From NCBI GenBank assembly GCA_026417995.1, contig JAOACF010000005.1:1-40600 (forward strand): a stretch of DNA of 40,600 bases. The letters run 5' to 3'. Position numbers and translations under genes: made by a program. This DNA comes from Negativicutes bacterium (lineage in GTDB: Bacteria > Bacillota > Negativicutes > Sporomusales > JAOACF01). Shown in pieces: positions 13,599-36,482 of this stretch. How positions within the stretch are numbered: position 1 is the first letter of the stretch; each line of letters begins with the position of its first letter. The notes beneath the pieces were generated by a model. That model made no database searches and was not told the origin of the DNA. It was given only the letters and a program-made list of their open reading frames with translations.

Positions 13599-14021
13599 TT
13601 AGCCGATAACTGCCATAATTTCACCAGGTTTAACGCTTTGTCCGGCATCAACATTGATGGATTTGATGATGCCATCTCGCGGCGCGCCAATTTCGTTCTG
13701 CATTTTCATGGCTTCCAGCAGCAGAATAACGTCACCTTTCTTAACCTTAGCGCCGGCTTTGGCAACAATTTTAGTAACTTTACCGGGCATCGGAGCGGTC
13801 ACCGGGGTTTCGCCGGCGCCCACTTCAGCCGGAGCGGCTTTGGGCGCGGGAGCGGCGGCAGGTGCAGGAGCGGCAGCCGGCGCAGGAGCAGCGGCAGGTG
13901 CAGGAGCAGCGGCAGGCGCAGGAGCGGCAGCCGGTGCAGGAGCTGCGGCGACAGTCACGCCTTGCTCTTGCACTTCAACGTTATAGGCAACACCATTGAC
14001 GTTAACTACAAACTTTCTCAT
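13599..14021 (-). CDS. mmdC: Methylmalonyl-CoA decarboxylase gamma subunit, biotin carrier protein
   Basis: This subunit carries biotin between the carboxyltransferase (alpha) and the membrane pump (beta). The 140-residue protein has a short N-terminal fold (MRKFVVNVNGVAYNVEVQEQ), a flexible Ala-Pro linker at about residues 27-63, and a biotinyl domain. The biotin site is EAMKMQNE, with Lys106 the modified residue. The linker is coded by an 18-bp tandem repeat. The ATG at 14021 follows GGAGGAA. The gene lies 52 bp after the delta/epsilon-like subunit gene. Confidence 0.95.
   Translation of the reverse strand: MRKFVVNVNGVAYNVEVQEQGVTVAAAPAPAAAPAPAAAPAPAAAPAPAAAPAPAAAPAPKAAPAEVGAGETPVTAPMPGKVTKIVAKAGAKVKKGDVILLLEAMKMQNEIGAPRDGIIKSINVDAGQSVKPGEIMAVIG
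13849..13950 (-). repeat. 18-bp tandem repeat coding the MmdC Ala-Pro linker
   Basis: Units start at 13849, 13867, 13885, 13903, 13921 and 13939, each a variant of GGAGCGGCGGCAGGTGCA on the plus strand; the last is partial. Each unit codes six residues of alanine and proline. Such repeats can gain or lose units by slippage, which would change linker length without breaking the frame. Confidence 0.9.
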
Positions 14022-14073
14022 GTTAGAATTCCTCCATCCTATTTGTTATTTATTATTATTGTTGGACAGACTT

Positions 14074-14391
14074 CTAGGCGAATTGGCGGCTGTCCATGAT
14101 CTTCTGGCGGCCGGCAATCGCCCAGGCGTCGCTGGCGCGCTTGATGCGCAGGCCTAAGCCTGTTCCTGCGCCTCGGGAATGGTGAATGGCGGCGGCGATA
14201 GCCGCAATCATTTCATCATCTGACATTACCATATTGATACTGGCACTGATAGCAGCGATAATTTCCGGCTTGATGCCGGCTTCCACATTTTCTTCTAAAG
14301 TGGCTTCCACGGCAGCGGGAGCAGCTTTTTTCTTCTTTTTGGGAGCCGCCTCTTTTTTACCGCCGCCGAACAAGGAATCGAAAAAACCCAT
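14074..14391 (-). CDS. Methylmalonyl-CoA decarboxylase delta/epsilon-like subunit without a membrane helix
   Basis: The 105-residue protein begins with a short amphipathic segment (MGFFDSLFGGGKK), then a lysine- and alanine-rich stretch. A C-terminal region follows (IIAAISASINMVM, then RASDAWAIAGRQKIM) that resembles the C-terminal part of MmdD delta and the short epsilon subunit of Veillonella. Known delta subunits begin with a membrane helix; here none is visible. The anchor may instead be the 51-residue peptide at 12112-12267. The ATG at 14391 has a modest AAAGGGG site. Position between mmdA and mmdC matches the known gene order mmdA-D-E-C-B. The subunit name is uncertain, so I give no symbol. 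Confidence 0.8.
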   Translation of the reverse strand: MGFFDSLFGGGKKEAAPKKKKKAAPAAVEATLEENVEAGIKPEIIAAISASINMVMSDDEMIAAIAAAIHHSRGAGTGLGLRIKRASDAWAIAGRQKIMDSRQFA

Positions 14392-14418
14392 TATTCTATC
14401 CCCTTTCTGTCAAGCGGG

Positions 14419-15948
14419 TTACAGCGGAATATTGCCGTGTTTTTTCGCCGGACGCGCTTCACGCTTGGAAGCCAGCATATTAAGGGCGGAAATGATGCGC
14501 GGCCGGGTTTCGGCAGGCTCGATTACCTGATCGACAAAGCCGCGTTCGGCTGCTTTATACGGGGTAGCAAACTCTTCCACATATTTTTCGGTTTTGGCTT
14601 TGGCATCCGGATCGCCTTTAAAAATGATGTTGGCTGCTCCGGCAGGACCCATGACGGCAATTTCCGCCGACGGCCAAGCCAGAACCTGGTCTGCGCCGAG
14701 GTCTTGGGAACACATGGCCAGATAGGAACCGCCGTAAGCCTTACGGGTGATAACGGTAATTTTGGGAACAGTTGCTTCGGAATAAGCATAGAGCATTTTT
14801 GCGCCATGGCGGATAATGCCGCCGTATTCCTGATTGGTGCCGGGCAGGAAGCCGGGAACGTCAACCAGGTTAACCAGCGGAATATTAAAGCAGTCGCACA
14901 TGCGGATAAAGCGCGCTGCTTTGTCGGATGCGTTAACATCCAGGCAGCCGGCCATAACCGAAGGCTGGTTGGCGATGATACCCACCGATTGACCGTCGAA
15001 GCGGGCAAAGCAGGTTATAATGTTCTTGGCGTAGTGTTCCAGAACCTGGTAATACTCGCCGTTGTCGACAATCTTAGCAATTACGTCCAGCATGTTGTAC
15101 GGCATGTTGGGATTGTCAGGCAGCAGTGTATTGAGGCCCGGATCCATGCGCATCGGTGAATCGCCGGTGTCAATGACGGGAGCGGTTTCCATGTTGTTGC
15201 TCGGCAGGAAGCTTAGCAGGTAACGAATCTGGCGAATGCAGTCATCTTCATTTTCGGCTGCGAAGTGCGCAACGCCGGATACGCTGTTATGAGTCATAGC
15301 GCCGCCGAGTTCTTCGGCCGTAACTTCTTCGGCGGTAACCGATTTAATAACCTGCGGGCCAGTAATGAACATCTGGCTAGTATTTTTAACCATGTAAATA
15401 AAGTCGGTCAGCGCGGGGGAGTAAACTGCGCCGCCGGCGCACGGGCCCATAATTGCCGAAATCTGGGGAATTACGCCGGATGCAATGGTATTGCGGAAAA
15501 AGATTTTGCCATATCCGGCTAAAGCATCAACTGCTTCCTGAATGCGCGCACCGCCGGAATCGTTAATGCCAATCAAAGGGGCGCCCATCTTCAGCGCCAA
15601 ATCTTGCACTTTAACGATTTTTGCTGCATGCATTTCACCAAGCGAGCCGCCTTCGACGGTAAAGTCTTGGGCAAAAACGTAAACCAAGCGGCCATCAACC
15701 GTGCCATAGCCGGTAACTACACCTTCGCCGGGGAGTTCTTTCGTATCCATGCCGAAGTTAACGCAGCGGTGACGCACGAATTGGTCAAGCTCAACGAATG
15801 TGCCTGGGTCGAGCAGTTTCTCAATACGCTCACGGGCCGTCATTTTACCTTGGGCATGCTGCTTCTCAATCCGCTTTTCGCCGCCGCCAAGCTTGATCTT
15901 TTCCTGACTTTTCTTGAGAAACTCAATTTTTTCCTGGATGGTAGCCAT
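14419..15948 (-). CDS. mmdA: Methylmalonyl-CoA decarboxylase alpha subunit, carboxyltransferase
   Basis: The alpha subunit moves the carboxyl group of (S)-methylmalonyl-CoA to the biotin on MmdC. At 509 residues it has the usual length and both crotonase-like halves of acyl-CoA carboxyltransferases. Visible signatures are [40 protein letters not shown] with its oxyanion-hole glycines, [20 protein letters not shown], and in the C-terminal half [20 protein letters not shown] and [13 protein letters not shown]. The close sequence kin are decarboxylase and propionyl-CoA carboxylase beta chains; the neighbouring beta, gamma and small subunits decide for the decarboxylase. The ATG at 15948 follows GGAGGTG. 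Confidence 0.95.
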
Positions 15949-15983
15949 GTCACACCTCCATCAATGTTGGGACAGAGAAGAGA

Positions 15984-16391
15984 TTATTTGCGTTCGGAAA
16001 GCTCGAGCAAAATGCCGCCGGTAGCTTTCGGATGAATAAAAGCGATGCTGGCGCCGCCCGCACCGTAACGGGGCTTTTCATCGATAAGGCGAATTCCTTT
16101 TTCTTTCAAGTCGGCCAGCGCCGCTTCAATGTTGTCTACACGCAGCGCAATGTGCTGGATGCCTTCGCCGTTTTTCTCGATGAACTTGGCGATCGGGCCG
16201 TCAGGAGAAGTCGATTCGAGCAGCTCTACCTCGCTGTCGCCGGTCGGGATAAAGCAAACTCTGACTTTTTGCTCCTCAACCACTTCTTCGCCTAATGCGG
16301 TCATGCCCAAAACCTCGGTATAAAACTTTTTGGACTCTTCGAGGTTTTTCACTGCAATACCGATGTGGTCAACTTTAAGAACCTTAAACAT
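15984..16391 (-). CDS. mce: Methylmalonyl-CoA epimerase
   Basis: This 135-residue protein is a vicinal oxygen chelate (VOC) fold enzyme that interconverts the (R) and (S) forms of methylmalonyl-CoA, linking the mutase to the decarboxylase. The two beta-alpha-beta-beta-beta modules are visible, with metal ligand candidates His9 (DHIGIAVKN), the His in [10 protein letters not shown] near residue 77, and a Glu in the C-terminal LLELSE. Its place between meaB and mmdA fixes the assignment within a broad superfamily. The ATG at 16391 follows GGGAGGT. Confidence 0.93.
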
Positions 16392-16450
16392 TAAATATAC
16401 CTCCCTTTCTAATTTGAATATAGTTTAATATTAAACAACGTTCGGCTAAA

Positions 16451-17389
16451 TTAACGCAGCATGGAGCTGATGATTTCCGCAACAAGCGTATAAGGATCTT
16501 TTTCCCGTTTCTGCACGCTTGCGACCATGCTGTCAAACCGGCCGGAAACATTAAGTTTATTTAATACATACCGTCCAATGTGCTCGTCCAGAGCAGCCAG
16601 GAGTTCATTGCGGGCACGTTCGGTGCGCCTCGTTTCAAGCTCACCTGACTGGTGCAAATGCCGGATATGGTCATCAATAGCACCGACAAGTTCGGCAATC
16701 CCCTGATTCATGCTGGCTACCGTACGCTTGACGGGCGGGCGCCAGGACACCTTATCCTGGTTTAGATCCATCATCATTTCAAGTTCGATATTGAGACGGT
16801 CAACTCCATCGCGGTCTGCCTTGTTTATCGCAAAAATATCGCCTATTTCCAGTATGCCGGCTTTGATGGCCTGGATATCGTCGCCAAGCCCCGGCACCAT
16901 CACGACGATGGTAGTATCGGCATTTTTGACAATATCCACTTCCGACTGCCCGACACCCACGGTTTCAATAATAATAATATCCTTGCCAGCAGCATCCAAT
17001 ATCTTAACCGCGTCGGCAGTTTTGCGCGACAAACCGCCTAGACTGCCCCGTGTTGCCATGCTGCGGATAAATACACCTTCATCGGTCGTGATATCGAGCA
17101 TCCGGATACGATCGCCCAGTATCGCCCCGCCCGAATACGGGCTGGTTGGGTCAATGGCCACGATGCCGACGGTTTTACCCTGACGACGATACTCTTTGGC
17201 CACTTTATCGGTAAGAGTGCTTTTGCCAGCCCCAGGCGGCCCGGTTATGCCAATTAAATGGGCCTTGCCGGTATGAGGATATAATTTCTGCATAATAGCG
17301 GTTGCTTCGTCGTACTCGTTCTCCACTGCCGTAATCGCGCGTGATATCGCGATACGCGAGCCGCTAAGCACGCCTTCTACCAAATTCAC
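16451..17389 (-). CDS. meaB: MeaB, G-protein chaperone of methylmalonyl-CoA mutase
   Basis: MeaB (also ArgK family) is a G3E GTPase that loads and guards the adenosylcobalamin cofactor of the mutase. The 312-residue protein has Walker A GPPGAGKST at residues 50-58, AIDPTSPYSGGAILGDRIRM, the metal-binding IIIETVGVGQSEVD, and NKADRDGVD as the base-specificity loop. The C-terminal dimerisation arm (VSGRFDSMVASVQKREKDPY) is present. The start is GTG at 17389 with AGGTGG before it. It follows the mutase small subunit across a 98-bp gap that holds two strong hairpins. Confidence 0.94.
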   Translation of the reverse strand: MNLVEGVLSGSRIAISRAITAVENEYDEATAIMQKLYPHTGKAHLIGITGPPGAGKSTLTDKVAKEYRRQGKTVGIVAIDPTSPYSGGAILGDRIRMLDITTDEGVFIRSMATRGSLGGLSRKTADAVKILDAAGKDIIIIETVGVGQSEVDIVKNADTTIVVMVPGLGDDIQAIKAGILEIGDIFAINKADRDGVDRLNIELEMMMDLNQDKVSWRPPVKRTVASMNQGIAELVGAIDDHIRHLHQSGELETRRTERARNELLAALDEHIGRYVLNKLNVSGRFDSMVASVQKREKDPYTLVAEIISSMLR

Positions 17390-17406
17390 TGGACAACACC
17401 ACCTAA

Positions 17407-17471
17407 GGGTTAGGATACCCTAACCCGTGCTATTGCGGCAGCCGGCCCTGCACTGCAGGGTCGGCTGCCGC
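17407..17471 (-). other. Two hairpins between the mutase small subunit and meaB
   Basis: GGGTTAGG and CCTAACCC (17407-17414 with 17419-17426) form one stem just before the meaB ribosome binding site. GCGGCAGCCG and CGGCTGCCGC form a second, with an inner CCCTGCA/TGCAGGG pairing (17435-17471). Neither has a U-tract. They may stabilise the upstream message or lower read-through into meaB. Confidence 0.65.
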
Positions 17472-17487
17472 CCTCATTGCAATCGGT

Positions 17488-17880
17488 TTACTTTACATTG
17501 GCTTTGATATACTCGACAATCGCGCTGGTCGGAGTGCCCGGGGTGAACACTTCGGCAATGCCGGCAGCTTTGAGGCCGGGGATATCGGCATCAGGAATAA
17601 CGCCGCCGCCGATTATAAGAACATCATTCATGCCTTTTTGCCGGAGCAATTCGACAACCTTGGGGAACAGGGTGTTGTGCGCGCCGGATAAGAGGCTGAG
17701 CGCGACAACATTTACGTCTTCCTGCAGTGCCGCTTCGGCGATCTGCTCAGGAGTGAGGCGGATACCGGTGTAAATTACTTCGAAGCCGGCGTCGCGAAGA
17801 GCGCGGGCCACGACTTTTGCGCCGCGGTCATGACCGTCAAGACCGGGCTTTGCTACTAATACGCGAATACGTTTTGACAT
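17488..17880 (-). CDS. Methylmalonyl-CoA mutase, cobalamin-binding subunit
   Basis: This 130-residue protein is a stand-alone B12-binding domain. It has the base-off signature DGHDRG (residues 15-20), with His17 the lower cobalt ligand, then LSLLSGAH and IIGGGVIPD lining the nucleotide tail pocket. It pairs with the catalytic subunit encoded just upstream; in many bacteria the two are fused. The ATG at 17880 follows AAGGAGGG, and the gap to the large subunit is 23 bp. Confidence 0.94.
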
Positions 17881-17903
17881 CGTTGTCCCTCCTTCTCTCT
17901 CGC

Positions 17904-19550
17904 TTACAGGGTTACATGCGCTTCGTACAGACCGAACACTTTGCGCATGACGCCACAGATTTCGCCGAGAGTTGCATAAGCCTTAACGGCATCCAGGATG
18001 TACGGCATAAGGTTAACGCTCTCGTCTTTGCAAGCGTCTTCAAGCGCAGCCAGCGTTCTTTCCACCGCTTTGGCGTCGCGGCGAGCCTTGAGGTCGGCAA
18101 GCTTCTTCTTCTGGAAGTCGCCTACGGACGAGTCTACGCGCAGCAGGCCTTCAACCGGCTTCTCCTTGATCTGGAACTGGTTGACGCCGACGATAATGCG
18201 CTGCTTGGTCTCAACTTCCATCTGCCACTTGTATGCGCTGTCCTGAATTTCTTTTTGGATGTAGCCTTTTTCAATGGCCACAACAGCGCCGCCCATGTCG
18301 TCAATTTTCTTGATATAATCCCAGGCTTCCTGTTCAATCTTGTTAGTGAGCGCTTCTACATAGTAGGAGCCGCCCAGCGGGTCAACTACATCGGCTAAGC
18401 CGCTTTCGTAAGCAACGATCTGCTGGGTCCTGAGAGCGATACGGACGGAATCTTCGGTCGGCAGTGCCAACGCTTCGTCCCGGGAGTTAGTGTGCAGCGA
18501 CTGGGTGCCGCCCATTACCGCGGCAGCCGTTTGCAAGGCAACGCGGACAATGTTATTGTCAGGCTGCTGAGCTGTCAGCATCGAGCCGGCTGTTTGCGTG
18601 TGGAAGCGCAGCATCCAGGACTTGGGGTTGGTAGCGCCGAAACGCTCCTTCATTATTTTCGCCCAAATGCGGCGGGAAGCGCGGAATTTCGCCACTTCTT
18701 CGAGCACATTGTTGTGCGCGTTCCAGAAGAAGGACAGACGGCCGGCAAAGTCGTCTACATTCAGGCCGGCTTTGATAGCGGCTTCGACGTAAGCGATGCC
18801 GTCAGCGATGGTAAAGGCAATTTCCTGCGAAGCGGTCGAACCGGCTTCACGGATATGATAGCCTGAAATGGAGATGGTATTCCAGTTCGGCACATGCTTG
18901 GAGCAATATTCGAAGATGTTGGTGATCAGCCTCATTGAAGGCTTGGGCGGGAAGATATAGGTGCCGCGCGCCGCATATTCTTTGAGAATGTCGTTTTGGA
19001 TAGTGCCGTTCAGCTTATCGGGAGAAACGCCTTGTTTCTCGGCAACGGCGATATACATCGCCAGCAGTACCGATGCGGGAGCGTTGATGGTCATGGATGT
19101 CGAAACTTTGCCAAGGTCAATGCCGTCAAAGAGGATTTCCATGTCGGCCAGCGAGTCGATGGCAACGCCTACCTTGCCCACTTCGCCTTCAGCGATGGGG
19201 TCATCAGAGTCATAACCGATTTGGGTCGGCAGGTCGAAGGCGCAGGACAAGCCTGTACCGCCCGATTCTAACAGATAACGGTACCGCTTGTTGGACTCTT
19301 CGGCAGTCGAGAACCCTGCATACATACGCATGGTCCAGAAACGGCCACGGTACATGGTGGGCTGTACGCCGCGGGTAAAAGGATATTCTCCGGGGAAGCC
19401 AAGGTCGCGCTCATAATCAAACCCTTCAAGATCAAGCGGAGTGTAAAGGCGGTTGTGCGCGAGATTAACCCGCTCCGGATTTTTGGCAAGCGATTTTTCC
19501 ACTTTGGCAGTGTACGCTTCCATTTTGGCTTTAAGTGTTTCGTTAGCCAT
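17904..19550 (-). CDS. Methylmalonyl-CoA mutase, catalytic subunit
   Basis: With the B12 subunit this enzyme rearranges succinyl-CoA to (R)-methylmalonyl-CoA. The 548-residue protein has the substrate-binding barrel of the family: [57 protein letters not shown] and the later [20 protein letters not shown]. It lacks a fused cobalamin domain. I chose the second in-frame ATG (19550), because GGAGG stands eight bases before it and only two bases before the first ATG. It follows the CoA-transferase gene by 18 bp, consistent with one transcript. Confidence 0.94.
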
Positions 19551-19568
19551 TCTCATGTCCTCCTTCTG

Positions 19569-21074
19569 TTACTTTTTCATTGAACCGGTTTGCATAAACC
19601 GGGTATGCCAGGAAAGAGCCTCGTCTAAGAGGTGCGGAGTATGGGCGAAACCAGTCGCCTTTTCCGCTCTTTCCAGGTAATCCATTAGCATCGGCTGATA
19701 GGTAGGATGTGCACAATTCTTAATTATTACACGGGCACGCTCTTTCGGGCTTAAGCCCCGCACATCGGCTACGCCGCGTTCGGTAATAAACACATCAATA
19801 TCATGCTCGGTATGGTCAAAGTGGGAGCACATCGGCACAACCGAGGAAATATCGCCGTTTTTCGCCACCGAGTTGGAGAAGAAGATCGTCAGGTAGCCGT
19901 TACGCGCAAAGTCGCCGGATCCACCGATACCGTTCATCATCTTTGTTCCCATGATATGGGTCGAATTGACATGGCCATAGATGTCAAATTCAATGGCGGT
20001 ATTCATGGCGATAATGCCTAAGCGGCGGGCAGTCTCAGGGCTGTTGGCAATTTCCTGCGGACGCAGCATGATTTTTTTGCGGTATTCTTTAATATTGGCA
20101 TACAAGCGCTTAAGGCCTTCCGGCGAAGGAGTAAGCGATGTACCGGAAGCAAAGTCAAGTTTGCCGGCGTCAATCAGGTCAAACATGCCGTCCTGAATAA
20201 CTTCGGTAAATACGGTAAGGTTTTGGAAAGGCGAGTCAACCAAGCCGGACATTACCGCATTCGCTACCGATCCCACGCCTGATTGCAGCGGCAGCAGGTT
20301 TTTCGGCAAGCGGCCGGCCTTGATTTCATTCTGGAAGAATTCTACCAGATAGCCGCTCATCGCGCGAGCGTCATCATCAATCTCCGCCAGCGGGCGAACC
20401 GCGTCAGGCAGGTCACAGGCTACGATCGCGGCAATTTTCTCAGGGCCGCAAGGAATATATGTAGTACCGATGCGATCATCCACTTTTACGATGGGGATAG
20501 GCTGTCGGTTGGGCGGATCAAGCGGAACATATACGTCATGCATGCCTTCCAGTTCGAGCGGCTGCGAAGTATTTACCTCGACAATTACGATATCGGCGCT
20601 TTGCACGAAAGAAGCAGAGTTGCCGAGCGATGTGGTCGGCACAATATGGCCTTCTTCAGTAATGGCGCATGCTTCCACGATGGCGACATCTACTTTGCCG
20701 CCGAGGAACCCGTAACGGGACATTTGCGCAACATGACTAAGATGCAGGTCGGTGTATTGAATGGTGCCATTATTGATTGACTTGCGGATTGCGTCATTGG
20801 TCTGATACGGCAGTCGCTTCTGGATGCCGTTGACCTCGGCCAAAGCGCCGTCAAGCTCTTTGCCAACCGAGGCACCTGTCCAAAGATTGATCTTAAAGGG
20901 CTCCTTTTTCATGCGTTCAGCTAAAGCAAGCGGCACCGCTTTCGGATAGCCAGCGGGTGTAAAACCGCTGGTTCCGACGTTCATTCCCGGCTTAATCAGA
21001 GCCGCCGCCTCTACCGCGCTGACAATCTTGGCGTGCAGCGCGGTGTTGCGTACGCGATCCCGGATGTCGATCAT
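19569..21074 (-). CDS. Succinate/acetate/propionate CoA-transferase (acetyl-CoA hydrolase/transferase family)
   Basis: The 501-residue protein belongs to the Cat1/AarC-type class I CoA-transferases. It has GTSGFTPAGYPKAVPLALA at the N-terminus, the glycine loop SGVGSVANAVMSGL, the FTEVIQDG segment with the expected catalytic Glu, and GIGGSGDFARN. As the first gene of the mutase/decarboxylase set it most likely moves CoA from propionyl-CoA to succinate, closing the cycle; acetate could also serve. The ATG at 21074 follows AAGGAGG; the frame extends 26 codons upstream, but across leader hairpin sequence and the ribosome binding site. Confidence 0.9.
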   Translation of the reverse strand: MIDIRDRVRNTALHAKIVSAVEAAALIKPGMNVGTSGFTPAGYPKAVPLALAERMKKEPFKINLWTGASVGKELDGALAEVNGIQKRLPYQTNDAIRKSINNGTIQYTDLHLSHVAQMSRYGFLGGKVDVAIVEACAITEEGHIVPTTSLGNSASFVQSADIVIVEVNTSQPLELEGMHDVYVPLDPPNRQPIPIVKVDDRIGTTYIPCGPEKIAAIVACDLPDAVRPLAEIDDDARAMSGYLVEFFQNEIKAGRLPKNLLPLQSGVGSVANAVMSGLVDSPFQNLTVFTEVIQDGMFDLIDAGKLDFASGTSLTPSPEGLKRLYANIKEYRKKIMLRPQEIANSPETARRLGIIAMNTAIEFDIYGHVNSTHIMGTKMMNGIGGSGDFARNGYLTIFFSNSVAKNGDISSVVPMCSHFDHTEHDIDVFITERGVADVRGLSPKERARVIIKNCAHPTYQPMLMDYLERAEKATGFAHTPHLLDEALSWHTRFMQTGSMKK

Positions 21075-21112
21075 TCTACACTTCCTCCTTGTAATGTCAT
21101 ATTTATTATTGC

Positions 21113-21138
21113 TCTGCCGGCGTTGGTTCGCCGGCAGA
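21113..21138 (-). other. Hairpin in the leader of the CoA-transferase operon
   Basis: TCTGCCGGCG and CGCCGGCAGA form a perfect 10-bp stem with a 6-base loop, ending about 40 bp before the CoA-transferase start. An AT-rich run follows on the minus strand. It may be a late stem of the leader or an attenuator. Confidence 0.6.
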
Positions 21139-21173
21139 CGTACCCCAAACAAAAAAACATTATTTTATTATGT

Positions 21174-21214: not shown

Positions 21215-21403
21215 AAAAAAAACACCATTAGACCGTTTTGCGCATGGCAAAAAACCCCCGTTGGTGTCTTACTCGCCTCTGTTGCCTTTTTCTCAGCAAC
21301 AGCCCATAAGATACTTCGTTTTTCCTGCGTACTTTCGGCCAGGGAACGCATCCCGGGTCGTCCATACTATTTATTTTGTTTCTCTTAGAAACGCCCGGGA
21401 CAA
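21215..21403 (-). ncRNA. Candidate structured RNA (riboswitch-like leader or small RNA) with terminator
   Basis: No gene is convincing here, but the minus strand is dense in pairings. TCCCGGG/CCCGGGA encloses a GTTTC/GAAAC hairpin. TGCGT/ACGCA and TTCC/GGAA interleave as in a pseudoknot. CTGTTGC/GCAACAG forms a long stem, closed by GTaTCTTA/TAAGAcAC. It ends in a terminator: ACACCA (21262-21267) pairs with TGGTGT (21222-21227), with TTTTGC/GCAAAA inside, then eight T. The ACAC of the terminator arm also takes part in the preceding stem, so the two folds exclude one another, as in a riboswitch. I checked for the cobalamin, SAM, TPP, lysine and c-di-GMP classes by eye and matched none. Confidence 0.5.
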
Positions 21404-21414
21404 TGTATCCTTTG

Positions 21415-21441
21415 TTCACAAACATGTCACAAATTTCACAT
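21415..21441 (-). promoter_or_regulatory. Three phased TTTGTGA-like half-sites
   Basis: On the plus strand TCACA occurs at 21416, 21427 and 21436, about one helical turn apart. The stretch ATGTCACAAATTTCACAT (21424-21441) partly resembles a Rex operator. It lies just before the candidate RNA and about 70 bp after the rex stop. A possible promoter (TTGTGA, 17 bp, GATACA) overlaps it. The rest up to the rex stop is AT-rich with nothing recognised. Confidence 0.35.
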
Positions 21442-21509
21442 TATCCAAATTTAATATTCGCTAACCGGATTATAATTCCTGCAATATTATGTTGGTTTAT
21501 GAAACTTTT

Positions 21510-22160
21510 TTAGTATTTATCTCCCGGCAATTGGCGCGATAAATAATATGAAATACTGCTGAGACCGATGGACAGGTCTTCGTTCACCAGCTTTACATCG
21601 TCCGGTACATTAAGCTTGATCGGCGCAAAATTCCAGATGCCGCGAATACCGGCCTTGATCAGACGATTGGCGACCTGTTGGGCGAATTCAGCCGGAACGG
21701 TAATTACACCGATAACAATGTGCTTCTCGGGAATCACCCGCTCCATCTCATCCAAATGATAAATCGGAACATCGTTGACGCGCGCTCCGACGATTCCCGG
21801 GTCTACGTCAAAGGTAGCCGCCAGATTAAAACCGAGCGAAGAGAAGTTTTGATAATTGGCAAGTGCCCAGCCCAAATGTCCAACGCCGACGATGGCAATA
21901 TTCCAGTTGCGATGCAGCCCGAGAATTTCCCCAATATTGCGAATTAGGTCGCGGACGTAGTAGCCGACGCCTTTTTTGCCAAACTCGCCGAACAGCGACA
22001 GGTCTTTACGGATCTGCTCCGGGGTAATGCCGATGCGCCTGCCGAGTTCTTCGGAGGAGATAATCTCCAGTCCCTCTTCCTGCACATTGCGCAGTGTGCG
22101 GAAGTATAGCGGCAGACGATCAATCGTCGCTTTGGATATAACAATATGCTGATCTTTCAC
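21510..22160 (-). CDS. rex: Redox-sensing transcriptional repressor Rex
   Basis: Rex binds DNA when NAD+ is high and lets go when NADH rises, controlling fermentation and hydrogenase genes. The 216-residue protein has the N-terminal winged helix (ISKATIDRLPLYFRTL, then SSEELGRRIGITPEQIRKDL), the linking FGEFGKKGVGYYV, a Rossmann motif GVGHLG at residues 92-97 and the C-terminal swapped helix. The start is GTG at 22160 with GGGAGGT seven bases before it. It stands alone between the hydrogenase operon and the propionate operon. A likely Rex operator lies about 70 bp before the start, suggesting autoregulation. Confidence 0.95.
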   Translation of the reverse strand: MKDQHIVISKATIDRLPLYFRTLRNVQEEGLEIISSEELGRRIGITPEQIRKDLSLFGEFGKKGVGYYVRDLIRNIGEILGLHRNWNIAIVGVGHLGWALANYQNFSSLGFNLAATFDVDPGIVGARVNDVPIYHLDEMERVIPEKHIVIGVITVPAEFAQQVANRLIKAGIRGIWNFAPIKLNVPDDVKLVNEDLSIGLSSISYYLSRQLPGDKY

Positions 22161-36239: not shown

Positions 36240-36482
36240 TAGAAATAGCCTTTCATCCCAGGTTATAGGACGAAAGGCTTCACTTCCGCGGTACCACCTA
36301 TTTTCCCGCATGTCAGCGGGCGGCTTTAAAACGGCGTAACGCGCCGCTGCGGGTCGGCCTACCTGTCTCAGCCAACCGGCTCGGGGACGACTTCACTGCA
36401 CACGTTCCCGGATGCCTTCCAGCCACGGGCATCCTCTCTGGCGGGGGTATTACAGCTACTACTTCCCGTCATCGCATGTATC
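36240..36482 (-). promoter_or_regulatory. T-box riboswitch before valS (specifier GUC)
   Basis: The T-box core GGTGGTACCGCGG is on the minus strand within 36281-36300. Upstream are the stem I parts: an AGUA-like bulge, CAGAGAG (36434-36440), and the apical stem GGATGCC/GGCATCC (36410-36434). The specifier appears as GAAGTC followed by G, with GUC (Val) at 36389-36391. Downstream AGCCTTTC pairs with GAAAGGCT (36244-36280) and is followed by ATTTCTATA, forming the terminator. Uncharged tRNA-Val would bind the leader and allow read-through into valS. Confidence 0.95.

Follow-up and report, generated by a model that had tools for sequence, protein, structure and literature searches.

A candidate transcription-attenuating leader RNA, probably a riboswitch, upstream of energy-conservation operons in Negativicutes

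What lies in the gap between rex and a CoA-transferase gene in this Negativicutes bacterium, and what might it control? Both genes are on the minus strand of the window, by which we mean the whole stretch of DNA that was analysed (40,600 nt); rex ends at 21510, the CoA-transferase gene starts at 21074, and the gap between them is gene-free. The ~190 bases singled out by the original prediction are thus indeed intergenic on that strand and lie before a CoA-transferase/mutase operon. The genes concerned are:

21510 to 22160, minus strand: rex, redox-sensing repressor, the upstream gene
19569 to 21074, minus strand: ScpC, a succinyl-CoA:acetate/propionate-type CoA-transferase, the first downstream gene
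13599 to 19556, minus strand: the remaining operon, encoding methylmalonyl-CoA mutase (two chains), MeaB, epimerase, mmdA, a 105-aa protein and mmdC

ScpC scored 772 bits against NF053853 (cut-off 500). The window mmdA and mmdC score under the NCBIfam cut-offs, and the 105-aa protein, which has no family match, is read as mmdD-like. The identity of Rex rests on the domain pair PF06971 and PF02629; a Rex operator was absent from the rex/CoA-transferase gap with up to three mismatches allowed.

Folding of the window sequence by itself is weak evidence for a structured RNA, moderately above chance: the minimum free energy (MFE) was -60.6 kcal/mol against a mean of -52.6 for shuffled sequences, and 8 of 200 shuffles folded equally well. 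As z was only -1.91, prediction alone is insufficient to settle the structure. The minus-strand leader is closed by ACACCA..UGGUGU and eight T (21222-21215), the long terminator noticed at the outset. In the MFE structure the terminator stem recruits the AAG of GUAAGACACC from the 3' strand of the conserved helix before it, which bears out the suspected overlap of a terminator arm with a preceding stem. Between the terminator and the CoA-transferase Shine-Dalgarno sequence lies a perfect GC-rich hairpin without a U-run (CUGCCGGCG..CGCCGGCAG, 21108-21140, minus strand), possibly an mRNA-stabilising or translation element.

The evidence that we regard as decisive for the window element comes from sequence comparison with relatives, in which homologues and covariation put it far beyond chance. 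CoA-transferase searches yielded 80 named loci, with matches in 55 of 61 related genomes, and the order rex, gap (roughly 300-690 bases), CoA-transferase is kept at many of these loci; in several Pelosinus the gap is only 30 bases. A plain DNA search for the leader across the 61 genomes found the genome itself and no similarity in the 60 relatives, so that conservation of the RNA lies in its structure and in short motifs, not in plain DNA similarity. Conserved in this way, an element of two stem-loop domains and a terminator is common to the rex/CoA-transferase gaps of many Negativicutes genera; it was absent from that position at the Selenomonadaceae and Veillonella loci. Its consensus reads P1 - GGACAG - P2 - CUGAAAGU - linker - CUUAYGGUC - P4 - GAUA - AGUAAG, followed by the terminator CACC..GGUUUGUUUUG..CAAAAUAAACC..GGUGc and a U-run. 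In the window its parts are:

21215 to 21372, minus strand: conserved structured RNA, two stem-loop domains and a terminator (model R1, covariation)
21329 to 21367, minus strand: P1/P2 domain with the conserved internal loop GGAC / GAAA (alignment, pair counts)
21315 to 21328, minus strand: linker between the domains, proposed antiterminator strand to the terminator 5' arm (suggestive)
21268 to 21314, minus strand: P3/P4 domain, CUUAU..GUAAG around the GCUGUUGC/GCAACAG hairpin (covariation)
21215 to 21270, minus strand: intrinsic terminator with eight U at its end (sequence and fold; conserved across copies)

Alignment of the rex to CoA-transferase gap in relatives, proposed from the start as a check, gave conserved pairing with compensatory changes. 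From 20 sequences aligned simply with MAFFT, without fitting to structure, RNAalifold derived 40 pairs, 27 of them changed on both sides; once three P2 pairs had been added, 90.4% of cells in the same alignment were paired, compared with 35-43% in slid controls, and none of 500 shuffles scored as high by any measure. When 44 copies were aligned by the covariance model, a procedure that leans towards structure, 35 of the 40 pairs showed double changes, a level reached by none of 500 shuffles, and 92.2% of cells were paired, against 38-46% when slid. Both sides had changed in all ten P4 pairs and in five of seven P3 pairs among these copies, and the conserved residues lie mostly in internal loops. 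At L016, L029 and L111 the P1/P2 domain is lost or replaced, and a P3-like part and the conserved terminator are kept.

Model R1 gave the window copy 86.5 bits (E about 1e-19), the window sequence being among its 20 training rows. The structured RNA had originally been drawn over 21215-21403; comparison upholds it for 21215-21372 and places 21373-21403 outside the conserved model, with which the pairing of this upstream stretch (GUCCCGGG / CCCGGGAU) competes in silico. The window copy is a diverged member of the family: its predicted MFE disfavours P1 and the conserved terminator register, and its terminator stem is able to invade the P3 3' strand.

How widely does the element occur? With a first model, 40 of 301 genomes of the class had copies at E up to 0.1, weak ones among them. 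The retrained covariance model, built on 44 copies, detected copies with E below 1e-11 in 24 of 28 genomes of the same order (own genome included), and several genomes have two to four; three more of the 28 (G005, G010 and G014) have weak copies, placed between rex and mmdA. Anaerospora hongkongensis, Sporomusa malonica and Lucifera butyrica are culturable carriers of the element. A second, diverged copy (L264, G018:C8:164996-165132, E 6e-8) lies ~1.7 kb upstream of the usual one, the two sharing one rex/CoA-transferase interval. In the rest of the phylum, covered by about 380 genomes, neither the full nor the terminator-less model gave anything convincing; of two weakly matching genomes, one matched on both strands, as a plain inverted repeat would, and the other had an E of 0.006. 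The terminator-less model, restricted to the two upstream domains, recovered the same sites, all with terminators, and added none, showing that the upstream domains are homologous independently in both own-genome copies.

The genes downstream of the copies bear on function. The second own-genome copy (L143, contig C167, 20762-20918, E 3e-18) is followed by genes for ATP synthase subunit I and subunit a (PF03899, PF00119), and F-type ATP synthase operons lie downstream of copies in three other genomes (L148, L153 and L160; the first genes after L148 and L160 have no Pfam match and were assigned via the ATP synthase genes that follow). Further copies precede the beta subunit of a Na+-transporting malonate decarboxylase (L150), OAD-type beta subunits (L152 by Pfam, L151 by close likeness), methylmalonyl-CoA decarboxylase (mmdA) with rnf (L154, L162, L165), methylmalonyl-CoA mutase (L155-L158) and a Gpr1/Fun34/YaaH acetate-type transporter (L144). 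Na+-pumping decarboxylases are therefore among the targets (TIGR03136, PF03977, mmd), and no Na+/H+ antiporter was found among the target genes of copies. The copies stand upstream of same-strand genes of related function with the terminator between RNA and gene. As read from these gene assignments, the theme common to the target operons is energy conservation through ion gradients. Left out of this argument were L163 and L265, weak matches in different genera that both precede genes reading as HD-GYP-type phosphodiesterases (a possible further target class), L145, before a chemotaxis-receptor-like gene, and L149, which an opposed XRE-type gene separates from atpI. At L147 (G006:C3:21552-21703) the copy is followed by an opposed transposase-like gene; a remnant of the malonate decarboxylase beta gene, which the sister species has at this place (L150), was not found there.

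This gene set speaks to the ligands first suggested, adenosylcobalamin (AdoCbl) and succinyl-, methylmalonyl- or propionyl-CoA. A riboswitch for AdoCbl or a CoA ester, specific to the mutase operon, would be in keeping with the window operon, which depends on AdoCbl and on these esters. However, ATP synthase, malonate decarboxylase and transporter targets use neither B12 nor the esters, and no Rfam cobalamin match was obtained at E up to 10, leaving such a riboswitch very unlikely indeed. Copies before ATP synthase, decarboxylase beta (malonate and OAD-type) and transporter genes likewise argue against any of these compounds as the shared ligand.

Transcription of the leader was approached through promoter motifs. 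The sigma-H consensus of B. subtilis is RnAGGAwWW-N11/12-RnnGAAT, and the window holds one match to it, an exact one, ~85 bases upstream of the conserved RNA:

21456 to 21482, minus strand: sigma-H-type promoter, GCAGGAATT-N11-AGCGAAT
21215 to 21449, minus strand: predicted terminated leader transcript, its start taken from the promoter and its end from the U-run

With at most one mismatch, the motif occurs 45-125 bases upstream of 36 of the 44 copies (2.2 expected), and exact matches precede 22 of the 44 (0.05 expected). It is found 13 times in the own genome, compared with 0 for a reversed control; other matches precede genes reading by eye as spoVS, sigA and ylbF-like. Matched to the B. subtilis consensus only, the motif is most likely the promoter of the leader, which would most likely run for ~235 bases to the terminator. 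Since this promoter separates rex from the element, the leader most likely begins a transcript of its own and is not the tail of the rex message.

Two further readings can be weighed at this point. An ordinary rex terminator with chance folding and no regulatory role would explain both the position just downstream of rex and a single-sequence z of only -1.9, but the covariation over 40 pairs, the occurrence of some copies at loci without rex and the intervening promoter make it hardly credible. The copies before ATP synthase operons in effect refute it. The original prediction had also allowed for a free small RNA. One made downstream of rex and acting in trans, with the terminator as its own 3' end, would agree with a terminated transcript that forms a discrete ~235-base RNA with its own promoter; yet copies recur one gap ahead of various same-strand operons that share a physiological theme, with the terminator between, and the promoter stands upstream of the copies with no other shown between terminator and gene. 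We thus consider a free small RNA quite unlikely.

What we observe shows two features of a riboswitch: a conserved, covarying 5' leader directly upstream of related operons and, as expression platform, a terminator that adjoins the conserved domains in all aligned copies. Because every aligned copy couples the two domains to a terminator, transcription attenuation is the natural reading, in line with the switch that had been thought possible. Given this family, with its paired structure, terminator, promoter motif and gene set, we think there is a reasonable case, well short of certainty, for a cis-regulatory Negativicutes leader family that attenuates transcription of energy-conservation operons and is probably a riboswitch. 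In the proposed mechanism the transcript would start at the sigma-H-type promoter and the leader would fold into the P1/P2 and P3/P4 domains; the folded leader would then decide between a halt of polymerase at the intrinsic terminator next to it and readthrough into the operon. The operons so controlled would be those for propionate formation with a Na+-pumping decarboxylase, ATP synthase, other ion-pumping decarboxylases and Rnf.

The candidate ligand-binding riboswitch may act through an antiterminator in which the linker between the domains pairs with the terminator 5' arm. When the terminator 3' arm is withheld, several copies fold the linker onto the 5' arm around P3/P4. Linker/arm duplex energies favoured own over foreign partners (p 0.02) and real over shuffled linkers (p 0.0005), with a control stretch of the same RNA nearly as good as the linker, and an ungapped linker/arm test did not reach significance (53 of 500 permutations). 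As the control stretch is nearly equal and the ungapped test is not significant, the predicted pairing is suggestive, and we offer it as a proposal.

The main rival mechanism is a protein partner: an RNA-binding regulator, with no small ligand involved, would bind the two-domain leader and prevent or favour the terminator. Its appeal lies in the narrow distribution (one bacterial class), in targets united by physiology and not by one metabolite, and in two hairpin domains whose conserved internal loops would suit a protein. Against this, no regulator gene was seen beside the copies except the XRE-type gene near L149, and the concentration of conserved residues in internal loops resembles that of aptamers; neither point is decisive. 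Overall, we judge a protein-binding attenuator to be somewhat unlikely.

For the preferred riboswitch, the likeliest ligand would be an ion or energy signal common to the target operons. Na+ is the leading guess, a putative ligand that we put forward tentatively; adenylates, CoA or other signals may take its place. Two sequence-based observations would count against Na+, namely the lack of antiporter targets and the lack of a canonical Na+ signature in the c-subunits. The RNA-linked ATP-synthase c-subunits are without Q/E32..Y70 and do not differ from unlinked ones, and the two-carboxylate precedent for such subunits (PMC3692424) makes their D32/E65/S66 pattern ambiguous. Diverged c-subunit first helices that have lost the usual glycine motif were seen at L149, L200, L209, L236, L237 and L238, some of them RNA-linked. 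It is conceivable, though doubtful, that the candidate class senses Na+, or else some other direct indicator of energy charge or of how far the membrane is energized, and adjusts ATP synthase jointly with the decarboxylase ion pumps that drive it.

If the class did read such a signal, a single RNA-level control would govern a large share of the machinery with which an anaerobe conserves energy. The leader would add a candidate class of riboswitch acting on ATP synthase and decarboxylation-driven ion pumps, targets central to how propionate-forming and acetogenic anaerobes conserve energy. To our knowledge, the matching of ATP synthase and ion-pump synthesis to the energy state has been little studied in these bacteria. 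The leader gives a short list of ligands for in vitro testing, and the sigma-H-type promoters before most copies suggest that central energy genes are driven here by a sigma factor known chiefly for its role in sporulation.

Finally, we compared the leader with known systems. The view that it matches no known riboswitch class was borne out by covariance search: with Rfam 15, a scan of the window at gathering score gave no match at the element, and scans of the gap and of 13 relatives at E up to 10 gave chance matches only. No description of the leader was found in the literature searched, a search that left subscription papers largely outside. A T-box leader over the Rfam gathering score does occur in the window at 36263-36481 (minus strand, 113.5 bits) and is unrelated to the energy-operon leader. 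T-box leaders share with the element a multi-domain build and a choice between terminator and antiterminator, but the same search that found this one had no match at the element. A cobalamin riboswitch would suit the mutase gene of the window operon, but differs in the missing Rfam match and in the other contexts, which are without B12.

The Na+-I riboswitch (DUF1646 motif, RF03071 'Sodium') is likewise a leader RNA with a similar energy and ion theme in its gene list; its targets include oxaloacetate-type decarboxylase and ATP synthase genes, and it works with transcription termination in in vitro assays (PMC9337991). It differs in structure and size (RF03071 has 55 positions) and in its common Na+/H+ antiporter targets, which are absent here; its model had no match to the window element or the 13 relatives and none above cut-off in the 61 related genomes. 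The nqrA-II motif, an untested riboswitch candidate suggested to sense Na+ or a related signal, is also linked to Na+-dependent energy conservation, but unlike the leader it is confined to Pasteurellaceae, has four stem-loops and sits directly at the nqrA start codon of one gene (PMC11109978). The ldh2 and gltD motifs resemble the leader as Negativicutes riboswitch candidates upstream of metabolic genes; both are described with ribosome-binding-site occlusion whereas the leader has a terminator, and ldh2, as described, forms a three-stem junction and precedes Ldh_2 genes (PMC8632094). With the nearest candidates set apart by their descriptions, we assign the leader to a new riboswitch-like family outside Rfam 15.
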